A DNA stretch of 64,000 bases from Candidatus Poribacteria bacterium (GTDB taxonomy: Bacteria; Poribacteria; WGA-4E; WGA-3G). The DNA is taken from assembly GCA_022821965.1 (NCBI GenBank), contig JAJECN010000010.1, positions 124,001 to 188,000 on the forward strand. The letters run 5' to 3'. Both the position numbers and the translations under genes were made by a program. The notes below the pieces were generated by a model that worked only from the letters and a program-made list of their open reading frames with translations, made no database searches and was not told the origin of the DNA. Numbering within the stretch: the first letter of the stretch is position 1; every line of letters starts with the position of its first letter. Shown here one piece after another: positions 3,249 to 10,494 of the stretch.

Positions 3249-3560
3249 GCACAGTTCACAGATTTCCAAAATTTACGACTGTATTACGAAACGCAACCCA
3301 ACGAGCCGTTTTGTTTTGTCGAAACAGACGCAATCGGCAATTTATTGTGTCTCAATAACTTATTTCGCAGAGCAATTCCAAAAAAATCCAGATTTTTTTA
3401 CAAAATGCACGTTTTCCATCCCAAAATTTTGTCTTTAATAATTAAAGACTTGATGGTGTAAACGAGTTGTATTTTTGAATTTCAGAAAATCGACATCTGA
3501 TGTATGGAGGCGCGACTCTATCTACCTGTGGAAGTTGAGAGAAATAGGGAGTATTAAAAA
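3249..3560. other. 312 bp without a recognisable gene
   Basis: AT-rich sequence between the terminator and the ABC transporter. The longest ORF (to 3438) begins inside the terminator T-run, lacks a ribosome site and resembles nothing I know. It presumably contains the transporter promoter, but I see no clear -35/-10 pair. A purine-rich stretch (GAAATAGGGAG) before 3561 is the ribosome site. Confidence 0.4.
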
Positions 3561-5333
3561 ATGTCAACAGAGAATCCGAAGGCTGTCGGAAAGCGATTTT
3601 TAAAAGGTGTTTTCCCATACTGGCCCCAGATTGTTAAGACCGTATTATGTATGACCGCAATGGTTGGTTTCTCGCTGCTGATACCTCTTTTTACAAAATT
3701 GGTAATAGACAGAGCCATTACACAACAAGACCAAAGATTGCTCTGGATCGTCTGTCTTGGAGGTGTTGGTTCTATCTGTGTGTATGTTCTACTTTCTCTA
3801 ATACGGGACCGATTCTACATCTATACAACAAGACGGATCCTACTTGATTTTCGGAATCGTTTTTTCCAGCACCTTTTACGTCTTCCGATGCCGAGTCTCA
3901 CCAAAAGACAAACAGGGGAGTATGGTTCCATGGTCATTAACGATGTAGACGCAATTCTGACGAGTGCAACGTATAATGTTCTTCATTTTTTTACAGATAC
4001 TTTGTCAGCAGTCGCCATAATCTCCATAATGTTTTACTTCAATTGGCGGTTGGCACTGATTGCCCTAATCGTTGTTCCCCTAAATGGGCTCACTTACGTC
4101 TACTTTCGACCCCATTTTCATAAAGCAACCCTAAAGAGACAAGAAGCCATGGCATCAACGCTTTCGTATGTACAACAGACCTTGTCAGCGATTCGACTGG
4201 TAAAGTCCTTTTCGGCAGAGAAGCATTATAACCGCTCCTTCTTTCGAGAATCCAAATTGTTGCTTTTTGCCCAAGCGAAGGTCTCAGTTCTGGAATCGAT
4301 TGCAGGTAACATCAGTCAGTTTGTGGTGAGAACTCAACCTATCGTGATTATCTGCTTTGGGGGTCTGGAAGTCTTAGAAAACCGATTGACGATCGGTGAG
4401 TTGGTTGCCTTCTCGGCATATCTTGAATACCTGTCTGCTCCCGTATATCGTATACTTCATTTCCACCTTGGACTCGCCGCGACCAAAGCGGTACTCCAGC
4501 GTCTTTTCCAAGTTCTTGATTTAAGGGATGAACACAGTGGAAACGAAGATATGGAGAAGAAAAAACTTGACGATGTCGTCGGGCAGATTCAGTTTCAGTC
4601 TGTGCGTTTTGCATATCAAGAGGTTGAAGTTCTTAAAGACATCAATTTGGATATCCGTCCAGGTAGCATTGTCGCGCTTGTTGGTCCTTCGGGTTCCGGC
4701 AAAACCACACTGACGAATCTAATTCCGCGCTTGTATGAACCGAATGCCGGTCGTCTTCTGCTTGATGGACATGATTTGCAAACTTTAGACTTGAAATTCC
4801 TAAGACAGCAGATCGGAATTGTCCCACAAGAACCGGTTCTATTTGATGTGAGTATCAAAGATAATATCCGATATGGGTGCCCCTCCGCAACAGACGAGGA
4901 GGTTTACACCGCAGCGCGAGCTGCGAATATACATGAGTTCATTGTGTCTCTGCCGGACGGGTACGAGACACAGATCGGTGAACGCGGTTTTAAGTTGTCC
5001 GGTGGTCAAAAACAGCGTGTCGCTATTGCCATGGCAATCCTGAAAAATCCAAAAATTTTAATCTTAGATGAAGCGACGAGTGCACTGGACTCACAATCCG
5101 AGGCACTTATCCAAGAGGCACTCCAAAATGTCATGAAGCAGCGGACGACCTTTGTCATTGCTCACCGCCTCTCTACAATTAGGAATGCAGACCAGATTGT
5201 CGTTATGGATCAGGGACAAATCGTTGAAGTTGGAAATCATTCTGACTTGTTAGCGTCCGGCAAACTCTATAGCCAATTATATCGTGAGCAATTCAAATCC
5301 GTCTTAGATTCAACAGAAACGGAAGTTGAGTAG
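3561..5333 (+). CDS. ABC exporter half-transporter, MsbA/lipid-multidrug type
   Basis: 590 residues with the standard fused layout. An N-terminal six-helix exporter membrane domain (about residues 20-310; hydrophobic segments near 25-50, 62-82, 142-182, 248-300) precedes an ATPase domain from ~345. Walker A is GPSGSGKT (375-382), Q-loop VPQEP, signature LSGGQ (479-483), Walker B ILILDE (499-504) and H-loop H535. It should act as a homodimer that pumps a hydrophobic substrate (lipid, drug or peptide) out of the cytoplasm. Nothing next to it fixes the substrate. It appears to be a single-gene unit; the DUF5916 gene begins 101 bp later with its own ribosome site. Confidence 0.93.
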   Translation: MSTENPKAVGKRFLKGVFPYWPQIVKTVLCMTAMVGFSLLIPLFTKLVIDRAITQQDQRLLWIVCLGGVGSICVYVLLSLIRDRFYIYTTRRILLDFRNRFFQHLLRLPMPSLTKRQTGEYGSMVINDVDAILTSATYNVLHFFTDTLSAVAIISIMFYFNWRLALIALIVVPLNGLTYVYFRPHFHKATLKRQEAMASTLSYVQQTLSAIRLVKSFSAEKHYNRSFFRESKLLLFAQAKVSVLESIAGNISQFVVRTQPIVIICFGGLEVLENRLTIGELVAFSAYLEYLSAPVYRILHFHLGLAATKAVLQRLFQVLDLRDEHSGNEDMEKKKLDDVVGQIQFQSVRFAYQEVEVLKDINLDIRPGSIVALVGPSGSGKTTLTNLIPRLYEPNAGRLLLDGHDLQTLDLKFLRQQIGIVPQEPVLFDVSIKDNIRYGCPSATDEEVYTAARAANIHEFIVSLPDGYETQIGERGFKLSGGQKQRVAIAMAILKNPKILILDEATSALDSQSEALIQEALQNVMKQRTTFVIAHRLSTIRNADQIVVMDQGQIVEVGNHSDLLASGKLYSQLYREQFKSVLDSTETEVE

Positions 5334-5434
5334 AAAACTCATGATACATCAACTATCTAAGAAACACTTATAGAAATTAAGAAAACAAATTGGTTGTATT
5401 CTGTGCAAAATATACCAAAAAGGAGCAGATCTTC

Positions 5435-7432
5435 ATGAGCGTTAATGTAGGTATAATTATTCGATCTTGGAAATTTTTACTGAGTTCTATAGCTTTTTTT
5501 CTTGTGGTGAATCTCGCTGCCGAGTCTCAGACGATAGAAGCTATTAAATTCCACACGTCTCCCACGATTGATGGTAAACTTGATGATGAGTGTTGGCAAC
5601 GCGTGCCAGCAGTTGAGGAATTCAAAATCGCTGAGTTGGAGACGACTGTTCCAGACAAAACTGAAGTATTTTTAGGGTATGATGGCGAAGCACTCTATAT
5701 CGGTTTTCGTTGTGCTCAAGAAGAATCATCCATAATTGCGAATCAGACGCGAAGGGATGGAAGTTTTCAGTACGAAGACCATGTTGCCGTATATCTTGAC
5801 ACACACCATGACCGTCGCCGTTCCTATTGTTTTGCAGTGAGTCCACTCGGTACACAGCGGGATGAGAAACAGGGAGACTTAGGGTGGGATGGCGAATGGT
5901 TTGCCGCTGCAATGATAGAAGCATCTGTGTGGAGCGTTGAGATGAAAATTCCGTTTGACATGCTTGATCTACCACAGTCTGAAAAACAGACATGGGGACT
6001 TAACCTCGTGCGTCGCCATCAAAATCTTGATCGAACCAGCATTTGGGCGGACACCGGAGTCAATGTCTCTGATGCAAATCAATTCGGGACGCTGACAAAT
6101 CTTGAATTCAATCCGAAGGATACTGGCAGAAAGATTCAACTCGGCGGATATGCCTCTGTCAAAGCTGAAGATGCTTCCACATCTGAAGCCTTCTCTGAAC
6201 GATTAACAGGGGCAATAGGTGGCGATGTCGCTTATAAACTCACAACCAGCACCTCTTTCATCGGCACGCTAAATCCTGACTTCAGTCACATTGAATCAGA
6301 AGTTCAAGGGATCGTTTTATCGGATCTGGAGCAACGGTTAACCGACCGACGTCCTTTCTTTCAGGAAGATGGACGAATTTTTAGAGCACCCATCGCGCTT
6401 TTTTATAGCCGTCGCATTAGTGAAATAGCGTATGGCGCGAAATTAATCGGTAAAACTGGGAGGGCGACGTATGGCTTGATGGAGGTCAAAGAGAAAACGG
6501 ACGACAGCCATAATGTTTTGCTCCGAGGGCTTTGGGATGCCGGTAACTCGTCCTCGCTTGGGCTCTTCTTTGCGTCGAAAGAGATGCCAGAGACACATAA
6601 CAGATCTATCGCTGTTGATGGGTCCATTCGCTTACCTAAGGCACTGAACTTCGTTACAAACTATGCACGAAATTGGGAGTCGGAACACGACAGCACCCGC
6701 GCATTCCTTGCGGAAATATATCGCAGGGGGAATCCTATTGTTAGTCTTGCCTATCGCGACTTTACTGCAGGCTTTAACCCTGTCAATGGATACGTTCGAC
6801 TCACAGACATCCGGCAACCCAGTTTCTGGGGCGTGTACCAGTGGCCCGTTGAGAAAGGGGTTTTGCGAACTATCAAATTTGAATCTGTCCAATCTGGGAC
6901 ATGGAACCAAGACGGGGAAAAAACACGTGGCCATCATTTTCAACTGATCGGTTTCGATTTGGGAGAAAAGATAGAGACAGGGTTTTTCTACAGAAACTGG
7001 TCTTACGATGTCCACTCAAATTGGGTGATTGCAGCGCAAACAACATATAACCGCCAAAAACCTGACCGCATTTTTGTCGTCTATCAACACGGTGAGTTTG
7101 AGGGTGCCACGGCAACCTTCGTCACGACCGCGATGAACCTAATCCCATTTCGCTTTTTATCTCTTGGAATTGAAGGTGAAAATCTCTGGCAGACATTTCC
7201 AGACGGGCACAAGACTCGAAATTTTTCTCTCCGCGCAAGTATGAATCTTGAAATAGGAACGGAAAGGTGGGTAACGGTTCGGCTGCGTTCAGCACGTGAA
7301 CATAAGCCAAATTTCAACGCTGTCTTTAAATATACTTTTATCGAAAATCTTGTGTTATACATTGTCTATGGAGATCAACACGCCGAAGCGACAATCAACC
7401 AACTGTTTACAAAAATTGCCTTTAATTGGTAG
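5435..7432 (+). CDS. Secreted DUF5916 protein with N-terminal CBM9-like domain
   Basis: ATG 5435 with AGGAG at 5421-5425 is the start; the frame is open upstream but without a ribosome site. The 665-residue product begins with a signal peptide (SWKFLLSSIAFFLVVNLAA), then a CBM9-like carbohydrate-binding fold in the first ~200 residues (IDGKLDDECWQRVPAVEEF, later VFLGYDGEALYIGFRC). The rest fits the DUF5916 pattern: a beta-rich C-terminal region ending in alternating hydrophobic strands and a terminal W (IAFNW), as in outer-membrane barrels. This suggests a surface protein that binds glycans. The biochemical function of DUF5916 is unknown. The stop overlaps the extended frame of the next gene, but the true start of that gene lies 80 bp further on. 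Confidence 0.8.
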   Translation: MSVNVGIIIRSWKFLLSSIAFFLVVNLAAESQTIEAIKFHTSPTIDGKLDDECWQRVPAVEEFKIAELETTVPDKTEVFLGYDGEALYIGFRCAQEESSIIANQTRRDGSFQYEDHVAVYLDTHHDRRRSYCFAVSPLGTQRDEKQGDLGWDGEWFAAAMIEASVWSVEMKIPFDMLDLPQSEKQTWGLNLVRRHQNLDRTSIWADTGVNVSDANQFGTLTNLEFNPKDTGRKIQLGGYASVKAEDASTSEAFSERLTGAIGGDVAYKLTTSTSFIGTLNPDFSHIESEVQGIVLSDLEQRLTDRRPFFQEDGRIFRAPIALFYSRRISEIAYGAKLIGKTGRATYGLMEVKEKTDDSHNVLLRGLWDAGNSSSLGLFFASKEMPETHNRSIAVDGSIRLPKALNFVTNYARNWESEHDSTRAFLAEIYRRGNPIVSLAYRDFTAGFNPVNGYVRLTDIRQPSFWGVYQWPVEKGVLRTIKFESVQSGTWNQDGEKTRGHHFQLIGFDLGEKIETGFFYRNWSYDVHSNWVIAAQTTYNRQKPDRIFVVYQHGEFEGATATFVTTAMNLIPFRFLSLGIEGENLWQTFPDGHKTRNFSLRASMNLEIGTERWVTVRLRSAREHKPNFNAVFKYTFIENLVLYIVYGDQHAEATINQLFTKIAFNW

Positions 7433-7512
7433 TTCACTTTATAAACCTTAAAATAAACCTTAAACCTATTGTCGAGTGCGGACACTCAAAGCTACATTTA
7501 GGAGGGTTTCCA

Positions 7513-10494
7513 ATGGAAAGAGAAAATGATGCTCAACTTATTCAGGATACGTTGGCAGGCGATGATGAAGCGTTTGATGTTTTGGTGCGAAAGTACCAAA
7601 AGAGTGTTCACGCCCTTGCGTGGCGGAAAATCGGTGATTTTCACTACGCTGAAGAGGTAACCCAAGACACGTTCCTTCGCGCATACAAAAACCTCTCGAC
7701 GCTCAAGAAGCCGCACCAATTCTCTGGATGGCTGTATGTCATCGCAAACCGGCTTTGTATCAATTGGCTTCAAAAACAGAAATCTGTGATGCAATCCTTA
7801 GAGGACACGCCTATGGAAGAAATCGAGAATGCCTCGTATACACATTATGAATCTGAAAAACGTAAAGCAGCAGCTAGCGAGCATCGCCTTGAACTCGCCA
7901 AAAAACTTCTCGCCAAACTTCCAGAGAGTGAGCAGACTGTCGCCACCCTCTATTACCTCGGTGAGATGACGACCAAAGAGATTGGCAGATTCTTGGGGGT
8001 GTCTGTAAACACGATTACGAGTCGGCTTCAGCGTGCACGAAAGCGTTTACAAGATGACCAAGAACATCTCATCAAAGAGGTCCTCGGCGGCAGACAGATA
8101 CCGGCGCGTTTAAGTGAGAGCATCAAGCGGCAAATCGCCGATATGAAACCTACACCTACGCCAGTTGGAAAACCGTTGCTACCATGGAGTGCCTTCGGCA
8201 CGGCTGTGGTCGTGATTATATTGATGCTCGGGGTCAGCAGCCGATATCTTAACCGTTTTCAGAGACCCTACAATTTTGAGGCGGAATCTGAACCTACAAT
8301 TGAAATCATTGAGGCACCTGTCGTTTTTGATGTTGACTCGAAACCCGATGTGCGAAATCAGGTCGGACGCGCTGTGTCCTCAGACAAAAGCACAGGGGCG
8401 AGTTTGCAGACTTTTGAGAACACCTCAACCTCTAATGCGCAAGACAATTCCGCTAAGTTTTCCAACGCGCAATGGATACAGGGGAATGCACCGCCAGGGG
8501 GATATGTCCGCAATATCTTTGCTGGACCTGAAGGCACCCTGTATGCTGTTTCACCAACAGGGCTGTACAGGTTTGCGGTAGGTGCGGCTGCATGGACACG
8601 CATTAACGCAAATATCCCGATTGATAAATCTTTTATGCCGATGGCAGCATATAAAGGCACCCTTTATATTGTCTCTGCTGATGCGATATTTACTTCAGGT
8701 GATAGGGGCGAGACGTGGAGTTCGATGAGCTCTCGTCCCAAGGGATATGCTGTTGGGCTCATCATACCGGATGTGCGACAGGCACCTATGACGATGTATC
8801 TGGCACTTCAAGATAAAGGGATTTTCCGTTCTACAGATGGTGGCGTAAAATGGGATCCCCTCACTGATGGACTGAGAAACAAAAGGATTTCTGCTATAGC
8901 AACTGTTGGCGCAATAGTGTTTGTTGGCACGAACCGCGGTCTCTACCGTCTCGATTCAGACATTTGGAAAAAGTTGCCGGTGGGAGGTTCACAAACTGTC
9001 TATTCCTTGGCAGTCTTTAATAATAATGTTTATGTTTCAACGGGGCCTGATTTGCCCCACCTTGATTCGGACATTTGGAAAAAGTTGCCGGTAGGAGGTT
9101 CACAAACTGTCTATTCCTTGGCAGTCTTTAATAATAATCTTCATGCTGAAACAGGTCCCGATCTATTGGGATTCACGCCAATAGAGGTAGGGAAACCAGC
9201 AGTGCCGAAAAGCGAGGCACATTCAGTCAGGATTTTCCATTCGGCTGACTTGGGAGCGTCATGGACCGAAATAATGCATATAGATAAACCTAACTCAAGG
9301 GCTGGCGCATCGGGTATAACGGTTTTAGCTGCTGGTGAAACGATCTTAGCCTTGGGAAGCACACACTCTCATTCGACAGATGGCGGACAGACATGGACAG
9401 AGTTAGGCATTGACACGGATATGCAGATGATCAGCAGCCTTCCAGCCGTAGCGATGAACGAGACAACATTTTACAAAGCGGGTGCATCCGGCATTCACCG
9501 GACAACTGATAGTGGTAAATCGTGGCATCTATTTATGGATGGAATAGTAGGAACAAGGGCAAACAACTTGGTTGTCTTCAACAATAGATTATACGCGCAT
9601 ACCGGCTATGAAGTTTATCAATCAACAGATGAAGGTGAGACTTGGAAAAAACTTGTGATCGCCGGGGAGTCTGCTACAGAGGGAACTACGGTTGCCCCCT
9701 TAAAACAGGATAGGTTCCGCGTCCATACCTCTTTCGATTCAAAGTTGATGGTTGACGGGAATATACTTTATTTCGTTTCACCTGAAAAGCACACCTTGCG
9801 AATTTACCGTTTATCTGTAGATGGCGATACGCTCATTCCAGTTCAAGACTTTTCTACATATAATCATGAATCATTATCTCCACTGCCTGAAAAAGCAGTG
9901 AAAATCAAGGCGATTGTCGTCAGTAATAATGTGCTCTACGCGGAATACGGACAAAGACTCTTCAAGTGGAAACTCGGCGATCCAAAATGGGTGGATACCG
10001 GATTGATAAACACTGATAAACACCCTCATGCGGATATGAAAAATGGTTTCAAGGTAGCAGTTTCAGAAGCAACCGTCTACGTCGGTAAGCGGGATGGTCG
10101 ACTGTTTCAATCGCTGGATAGCGGAAAAAACTGGAAAGACATTACGCTAAGTCTGCCCCTTCGCTTTACGCACTTCAACGATATCCGCTTTGTAGGTTCA
10201 ACAGTTTATATCGCAACGGACGCAGGTGTCTTGGCTTCACAAACCGGCGAACACTGGCACGTGATAACTGATAACTTGGGAGAGCGTTCCGTCATCAACA
10301 GATTTGCTGTAGATGGTATAACAGTTTATGCTGCTGGCGATGCCGGGATCTACCGTTTGGATAACCTTGGCAAGTGGAAGCAGATTTCTTCGGAAGTTTT
10401 AGGTGAAGTTATTTCTCTCGCCGTCATTAACAATCGCCTCTATACTGCCATTAATGAGCGAGGAATTTTTCATATCTCACTTGGCGAAGAATAG
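7513..10494 (+). CDS. ECF sigma factor fused through one membrane helix to an Asp-box beta-propeller
   Basis: ATG 7513 follows AGGAGGG (7500-7506); 993 residues. Residues ~20-90 are sigma region 2 (DEAFDVLVRKYQ, AEEVTQDTFLRAYKN, FSGWLYVIANRLCINW). Residues ~130-182 are region 4 (LPESEQTVATLYYLGEMTTKEIG, then GVSVNTITSRLQRARKRL). A basic linker leads to a single hydrophobic helix (~224-245, SAFGTAVVVIILMLGV). The remaining ~740 residues contain at least seven Asp-box or BNR-like turns (S-x-D-x-G-x-x-W, for example STDGGQTW, STDEGETW, SLDSGKNW), as in sialidase or YCF48-like propellers. The N-terminal sigma part would be cytoplasmic and the propeller outside. The usual ECF layout splits sigma and membrane sensor/anti-sigma into separate proteins; here both are one chain, so release probably needs proteolysis. 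No separate anti-sigma gene is adjacent. Confidence 0.88.
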   Translation: MERENDAQLIQDTLAGDDEAFDVLVRKYQKSVHALAWRKIGDFHYAEEVTQDTFLRAYKNLSTLKKPHQFSGWLYVIANRLCINWLQKQKSVMQSLEDTPMEEIENASYTHYESEKRKAAASEHRLELAKKLLAKLPESEQTVATLYYLGEMTTKEIGRFLGVSVNTITSRLQRARKRLQDDQEHLIKEVLGGRQIPARLSESIKRQIADMKPTPTPVGKPLLPWSAFGTAVVVIILMLGVSSRYLNRFQRPYNFEAESEPTIEIIEAPVVFDVDSKPDVRNQVGRAVSSDKSTGASLQTFENTSTSNAQDNSAKFSNAQWIQGNAPPGGYVRNIFAGPEGTLYAVSPTGLYRFAVGAAAWTRINANIPIDKSFMPMAAYKGTLYIVSADAIFTSGDRGETWSSMSSRPKGYAVGLIIPDVRQAPMTMYLALQDKGIFRSTDGGVKWDPLTDGLRNKRISAIATVGAIVFVGTNRGLYRLDSDIWKKLPVGGSQTVYSLAVFNNNVYVSTGPDLPHLDSDIWKKLPVGGSQTVYSLAVFNNNLHAETGPDLLGFTPIEVGKPAVPKSEAHSVRIFHSADLGASWTEIMHIDKPNSRAGASGITVLAAGETILALGSTHSHSTDGGQTWTELGIDTDMQMISSLPAVAMNETTFYKAGASGIHRTTDSGKSWHLFMDGIVGTRANNLVVFNNRLYAHTGYEVYQSTDEGETWKKLVIAGESATEGTTVAPLKQDRFRVHTSFDSKLMVDGNILYFVSPEKHTLRIYRLSVDGDTLIPVQDFSTYNHESLSPLPEKAVKIKAIVVSNNVLYAEYGQRLFKWKLGDPKWVDTGLINTDKHPHADMKNGFKVAVSEATVYVGKRDGRLFQSLDSGKNWKDITLSLPLRFTHFNDIRFVGSTVYIATDAGVLASQTGEHWHVITDNLGERSVINRFAVDGITVYAAGDAGIYRLDNLGKWKQISSEVLGEVISLAVINNRLYTAINERGIFHISLGEE
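8953..9174 (+). repeat. In-frame 111-bp tandem duplication inside the propeller
   Basis: Two adjacent 37-codon units (8953-9063 and 9064-9174) are almost identical at DNA level. Both encode SDIWKKLPVGGSQTVYSLAV and then diverge in the last ~12 residues (NVYVSTGPDL against NLHAETGPDL). This is a recent duplication of part of a propeller blade. Confidence 0.9.

Follow-up and report, generated by a model that had tools for sequence, protein, structure and literature searches.

ECF sigma factors that carry further domains in the same chain have been described several times. In ECF52, exemplified by SCO4117 of Streptomyces coelicolor, a sigma factor, a membrane helix and an extracellular binding domain share one polypeptide, and an autoregulated promoter and proteolytic release have been proposed for it (PMC5826349, PMC8999054). 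IutY (ECF243) of Pseudomonas putida is freed by Prc and RseP, and ECF57 proteins bear WD40 C-terminal extensions and a pair of conserved cysteines through which, it has been proposed, sigma 2 and sigma 4 are connected (PMC8999054). As one-chain ECF factors with a membrane helix thus already exist in ECF52, ECF53 and IutY, the layout described below is not new as such. For Poribacteria, the literature searched – most subscription papers lying outside its reach – holds no description of such sigma factors.

The protein considered here is encoded in a 64,000-nucleotide stretch of DNA from a Candidatus Poribacteria bacterium, referred to as the window; the features of interest are collected in Table 1.

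The protein and its orthologues

The open frame encodes 993 residues, comprising an ECF sigma factor (regions 2 and 4) followed by a single transmembrane helix and an Asp-box propeller of about 690 residues, and its ATG lies 7 nt past the AGGAGG. An alternative frame of 1022 residues, opening with a TTG at 7426, is unlikely to mark the true start, because the orthologues begin at the codon equivalent to the ATG, usually as a GTG. When the whole chain was scanned with Pfam, Sigma70_r2 (residues 24–90) and Sigma70_r4_2 (130–179) were the sole sigma-region matches above cut-off; the TIGR02937 sigma70-ECF model scores 95.9 bits (cut-off 42.9), and SigW (5wuq, 3e-22) and E. coli sigma-E (6jbq, 1e-14) can each be aligned to almost the entire sigma part. 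Judged by its sequence, it is an ECF sigma factor by definition, with regions 2 and 4, a short linker and neither region 1.1 nor region 3. By hydropathy, rather than by a trained topology predictor, exactly one hydrophobic helix is found in the chain, at about residues 223–242, and the stalk that follows (243–286) has the consensus QYLxRFQKPYSFxAxSExTIEIIDAPIVLDxxxKPDVRNQ. Structure prediction for six close orthologues, at a mean pLDDT of 36, placed helices up to about residue 248 and strands from about residue 334.

Table 1. Positions, in the window, of the sigma/propeller gene, its parts and the predicted operon
Feature	Position	Strand	Basis and remarks
Predicted ECF-type promoter of the operon, TGCACG-N~19-TTGTCTTTAA	3406..3438	+	Only convincing family-motif match in the window
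ABC exporter (transmembrane region and ATPase), first gene of predicted operon	3561..5333	+	Pfam ABC_membrane, ABC_tran
DUF5916 protein, second gene of predicted operon	5390..7432	+	Pfam DUF5916, 2.3e-9
Ribosome binding site AGGAGG	7500..7505	+	Sequence; kept in orthologues
One-chain ECF sigma/transmembrane/Asp-box propeller protein	7513..10494	+	993 aa; ORF, Pfam, orthologues, dN/dS
Sigma-70 region 2, residues 24–90	7582..7782	+	Pfam PF04542, 7.8e-15; SigW and E. coli sigma-E alignment
Sigma-70 region 4, residues 130–179, including -35 recognition helix	7900..8049	+	Pfam PF08281, 3.9e-13; alignment
Putative cytoplasmic juxtamembrane segment, residues 183–222	8059..8178	+	No HxxxCxxC zinc finger; conserved in 39 transmembrane paralogues
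Transmembrane helix, residues 223–242	8179..8238	+	Hydropathy 2.14 over 19 residues; same position in 39 paralogues
Putative extracytoplasmic stalk, residues 243–286, candidate cleavage region	8239..8370	+	Conservation across paralogues
Asp-box (sortilin/YCF48-type) propeller, residues ~318–993	8464..10491	+	Pfam and PDB sequence matches; seven Asp-boxes
102-nt tandem repeat within propeller, copy 1	8950..9051	+	Repeat search; orthologue L033 lacks one copy
102-nt repeat, copy 2	9061..9162	+	89% identical to copy 1; spacing 111 nt

In the C-terminal part, Sortilin-Vps10 (PF15902), PSII_BNR (PF14870) and DUF6242 exceed their Pfam cut-offs, and similarity to YCF48/sortilin-type propellers reaches a phmmer E of about 1e-8. 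Seven strict Asp-boxes (S/T-x-D-x-G-x-x-W) start at residues 395, 440, 577, 621, 664, 704 and 867; shuffled versions of the same region contain 0.03 on average and never more than 2. With these repeated boxes in a beta-rich domain, the sequence is that of an Asp-box (BNR) propeller. As to sialidases, the BNR matches are weak and stay below the Pfam cut-off, and the propeller that follows the membrane helix is, by Pfam, no recognised carbohydrate-binding module. The first-pass annotation had likened the propeller to YCF48-type domains, which proved apt, and had proposed that it could sense glycans, which finds no support for this member: its best relatives are of YCF48/sortilin type, and its companions in the operon are an ABC exporter and a DUF5916 protein.

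Other parts of that annotation have held: an open frame with sigma regions 2 and 4 and one predicted helix, at least seven Asp-boxes and a good ribosome site, conserved in orthologues, are all present. So has its view that sensor and sigma factor are covalently joined; the Pfam scan of the full protein matched no anti-sigma domain, and no anti-sigma gene is apparent among the neighbours (ABC exporter, DUF5916 and GFO/IDH/MocA). Of the two modes of signal transfer that it named, cleavage or clustering, cleavage has indirect support, discussed below. What the letters of the window by themselves did not reveal is that the protein is one of many modular paralogues with a shared predicted promoter.

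Orthologues are 83–95% identical overall. Five Candidatus Poribacteria contigs (L031, L032, L033 in part, L034 and L035) carry them at 83–94% identity, one of which, L031, is a single-contig chromosome of 5.85 Mb carrying the intact fusion; a wider genome search added more from the same genus and one from a different genus of the family. A sequencing error joining two frames near residue 190–220, and absence of the fusion from close relatives, had both been considered at the outset; intact orthologues in several genomes, including the single-contig chromosome, exclude them, and the fusion is therefore not an assembly artefact. Across four comparisons, dN/dS is 0.16–0.21 for the sigma part and 0.18–0.25 for the propeller, ratios at which the sigma part is, on sequence grounds, under purifying selection. 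The core of sigma factor and transmembrane helix occurs in all 59 searched genomes of the same taxonomic family, mostly in many copies; genomes of the same order have 0–2 copies, and almost none are found in the class and beyond.

Paralogues and their C-terminal partners

The source genome contains about 50 paralogous sigma fusions. As many as 112 of its stretches match the 993-residue protein, and from the matching loci 56 sigma-bearing ORFs were collected, grouped on contigs C43, C34, C61, C13, C41 and C9. A transmembrane helix stands at the same place in 39 of the 56, which have a common sigma–linker–helix–stalk module joined to unrelated ectodomains: Asp-box propellers in 20, WD40 in six, and in the remainder kelch, GHL15, LRR, Reg_prop, PD40, C-type lectin, M16 or unrecognised domains. 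Some 13 of the 56 have other partners and no helix, two are FtsZ fusions with a different sigma factor, and two are a fragment and a truncated copy. Ectodomain-like partners (lectin, kelch, WD40, Reg_prop) prevail where the helix is present, and cytosolic enzymes are among the partners where it is absent.

Among the 39 transmembrane forms, the commonest residue at a position has a mean frequency of 0.77 in sigma 2, 0.78 in sigma 4, 0.61 in the juxtamembrane segment, 0.57 in the helix and 0.69 in the stalk (243–286), and then 0.37 and 0.34 beyond it. Since conservation falls after the stalk, the common module ends about 45 residues outside the membrane. HxxxCxxC is absent from all 39, and C82 is their only conserved cysteine. 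The -35 recognition helices vary little among the paralogues.

On a tree of the sigma part, the 18 C-terminal classes need 23 changes, against a least possible 17 and a shuffled mean of 29.2, and the Asp-box class alone requires at least eight changes on well supported branches. One pair of paralogues, L089 and L098, is 93.75% identical in DNA over a stretch that opens 60 nt ahead of the start codon and reaches about codon 305, after which one continues as Asp-box propeller and the other as kelch; homology returns (87%) directly past the gene. Such sequence comparisons show that ectodomains are exchanged on one module.

Several helix-less members are of interest in their own right. Two Asp-box paralogues (L064:3137-5947 and L064:6060-8906, reverse strand) have the sigma part placed directly on the propeller, with neither transmembrane helix nor stalk. 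Family sigma modules without a helix are also fused to thioredoxin-like (L075, L076; AhpC/TSA), peptidase (L080; M61) and HTH (L068) partners. At L081:7940-9664 on the reverse strand (C59:71442-73163), a family sigma module runs in frame, without a stop, into a complete DNA polymerase III beta clamp (DnaN); this fusion was found alongside a normal DnaN gene in about 20 of the genus genomes searched, single-contig ones included, and a second, more distant sigma–DnaN protein occurs in genomes G011, G021 and G022. A covalent clamp–sigma protein recalls phage T4 late transcription, with its clamp plus gp55.

FtsZ, too, has been joined to sigma factors. A forward-strand ORF of 1411 residues (L087:3468-7703; C14:29467-33699) encodes an ECF sigma factor, FtsZ and a PHP-DNA polymerase III alpha part in a row, an arrangement present in about 15 genus genomes – among them the single-contig G005 and G009 – alongside normal FtsZ and DnaE genes; its FtsZ part retains a Met of its own with a ribosome-site-like sequence. 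A second sigma–FtsZ fusion, L081:2405-3610 on the reverse strand, has 401 residues, the GTPase domain only and a different, more distant sigma factor.

The operon and its predicted promoter

The sigma/propeller gene stands last in a predicted operon, after the genes for the ABC exporter and the DUF5916 protein, and the predicted promoter lies 4 kb before the sigma start. The predicted promoter elements are TGCACG and GTCTTTAA, and the ABC exporter gene begins 123 nt past the motif; the DUF5916 gene follows 57 nt behind the ABC gene and ends 80 nt ahead of the sigma gene. Directly upstream of the sigma gene no promoter was found, the gap from 7432 to 7513 being conserved only in its 3' part, with the ribosome site.

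A bipartite ECF-like motif, TGYAMC-N~17-CGTCTTTAA, recurs upstream of family genes in the clade to which this protein belongs, and another clade has TGCAMCC-N17-GCGTCACTATA. The former pattern has 44 matches in the genome, against 13 for a reversed control; on the same strand as a family start, 17 of the 44 lie within 500 nt upstream of it (at most 0.1 expected) and 27 within 4 kb (at most 0.9 expected). B-class promoter matches are weaker genome-wide (19, control 6). The site at 3406–3438 also precedes the orthologous operon in other genomes, with one substitution in L032 and L034 and one T fewer in L035. In L032 and L034, the first two genes have given way to an ABC-2-type set and to another, different DUF5916 gene; L031 has both gene sets, and its likely promoter falls beyond the stretch compared. 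Because the site is kept while the other operon genes are replaced, it is tied to the sigma gene rather than to the neighbours. The promoter nevertheless stands 4 kb from the sigma start, the recognition helices differ little, and any of the clade's paralogues might read it, which weighs against the model favoured below.

Across the family, neighbouring genes include many ABC-2 permeases (19 of 119), WD40/PD40 proteins and ABC ATPases – raw counts rather than an enrichment – and point to transport or export responses. Sulfatases, suspected among the neighbours from gene sizes, were discarded, the recurrent neighbours of about 500 residues being these ABC-2 permeases. Family motifs are also often paired in tandem, about 80–110 nt apart (C61:157106/157208, C61:159283/159386, C34:59116/59224 and C27:238253/238335). 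Behind A-class motifs, with no fused sigma factor in the surrounding stretch examined, lie an LRR protein (L171:4774-6489, reverse strand) and an ABC-2 permease (L173:2160-3560, reverse strand), which may be further members of the regulon.

Possible release of the sigma factor and comparison with known systems

The reading that we favour, with a probability of roughly 55%, is that of a single-chain receptor whose sigma factor stays membrane-bound and, once released by proteolysis, activates the operon that encodes it. The N-terminal sigma factor would lie in the cytoplasm, tethered by the one helix and inactive or poorly active in that state, with the propeller outside the cytoplasm taking a signal. 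Signal reception by the propeller would make the conserved stalk accessible to a membrane HtrA/DegS-like protease; intramembrane cutting by RseP would follow, and the freed sigma part would bind RNA polymerase and read promoters of its clade's motif type, above all the one at 3406–3438. The predicted output is more ABC exporter, DUF5916 protein and sigma/propeller protein, provided that this paralogue indeed pairs with this promoter. A gene for a membrane HtrA/DegS-like protease (transmembrane segment 30–48, trypsin and PDZ domains) carries a promoter motif of the same class. Of 14 other genomes of the genus examined, 7 keep this site and several more have near variants, and the non-coding DNA around it is poorly conserved; an RseP homologue with HELGH is also encoded. 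Most bacteria have homologues of HtrA and RseP, so that finding them here carries little weight in itself. It is the indirect evidence of the conserved stalk, the motif at the DegS-like protease gene and the RseP homologue, together with the precedents of IutY and ECF52, that makes regulated proteolysis the best-supported model (PMC8999054, PMC5826349).

Regulation could also do without cleavage, if ligand-driven clustering or a conformational change transmitted through the helix freed regions 2 and 4 while the protein stayed tethered. The juxtamembrane segment is conserved, partly even in some paralogues without a helix, and may therefore be a built-in regulatory element of the sigma factor; in ECF41 and ECF238, a C-terminal extension that changes its conformation indeed does the regulating (PMC8999054). 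Yet the best conserved part after the sigma factor is the stalk just outside the membrane, the promoter motif is common to the DegS-like protease gene, and IutY, the closest studied one-chain membrane ECF factor, is cut (PMC8999054), so that we consider this course rather unlikely. Less probable still is a propeller that remains in the cytoplasm as a protein-interaction scaffold for the sigma factor, the helix being peripheral or inserted the other way: the two helix-less Asp-box paralogues of L064 mean that a propeller need not be outside and that a cytoplasmic one seems possible, and other family members have plainly cytosolic partners such as DnaN, but helix (hydropathy about 2 over 19 residues) and stalk are kept and travel together in 39 paralogues, and helix-bearing and helix-less forms differ in their partners as described above.

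Similarly improbable is a sigma factor that is constitutively tethered and active mainly on membrane-near DNA, or a gene that yields two proteins through an internal start, the propeller then being a separate surface protein. Internal ATGs with ribosome-site-like sequences do occur at the joints of some cytosolic fusions, such as sigma–FtsZ and sigma–DnaN; in the transmembrane forms, however, helix and stalk are conserved in frame with the sigma factor, the joint lies within a block of DNA (60 nt upstream to about codon 305) that travels as a unit, and no signal peptide follows an internal start in the sequence of this ORF. The idea of a relic sigma domain without function, or of an ORF created by misassembly, can be given very little weight. 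Some copies do decay, as the truncated paralogue L083:14857-16092 and the 126-residue fragment L077:3115-3495 attest, but the present one is conserved in independent assemblies, including the single-contig chromosome, its sigma part shows a dN/dS of about 0.16–0.21, and a promoter motif is linked to the family.

Beyond release by proteolysis in this one protein, the family looks like a mix-and-match receptor set wired directly to gene expression, in which different sensors sit on nearly the same switch. A broader proposal, to which we assign slightly less than even odds, is that Poribacteria have a recombining repertoire in which a fixed promoter–sigma–helix–stalk cassette has been copied again and again and joined to new ectodomains. 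Shared proteases would then channel dozens of external signals to one class of promoters, an arrangement that would stand in for individual sigma/anti-sigma pairs. Such a family illustrates a way in which many receptors could arise in a bacterium, through exchange of the ectodomains carried by a single transcription switch; it would be a predicted main sensing route for an abundant, uncultured group of sponge symbionts, and it supplies a promoter motif open to test.

Set beside known systems, the propeller shares Asp-box repeats and sequence with YCF48 and sortilin-type propellers, differing in its attachment to a sigma factor via a membrane helix. A link to the TRADD-N/ECF conflict systems (PMC8195603) was not borne out, as the domains named for them were not found in the chain. 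Like ECF57, the protein has a propeller-type C-terminal extension – and six paralogues carry WD40 itself – although here it is an Asp-box propeller, and one conserved cysteine (C82) takes the place of two. With IutY, it has in common a sigma factor fused to a membrane-spanning C-terminal part; IutY, however, has a fused anti-sigma factor and a partner outer-membrane siderophore receptor, whereas here Pfam matched no FecR-type domain in the chain and no siderophore receptor is among the neighbouring genes.

ECF52 is alike in combining sigma factor, helix and (here predicted) outside domain on one chain, and in that an autoregulated promoter and proteolytic release are proposed. It has a zinc-finger anti-sigma (ZAS) domain, a proline-rich linker and a carbohydrate-binding module; between sigma factor and helix, Pfam matched no ZAS domain here, in keeping with the missing HxxxCxxC, and the predicted outer part is an Asp-box propeller. 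Moreover, ECF52 is confined to Actinobacteria, with a sole family member in S. coelicolor, compared with about 50 fusions in the one source genome here. Three traits thus set the poribacterial family apart: its copy number, ectodomains that can be exchanged on a constant stalk, and a chain in which no anti-sigma domain could be detected.
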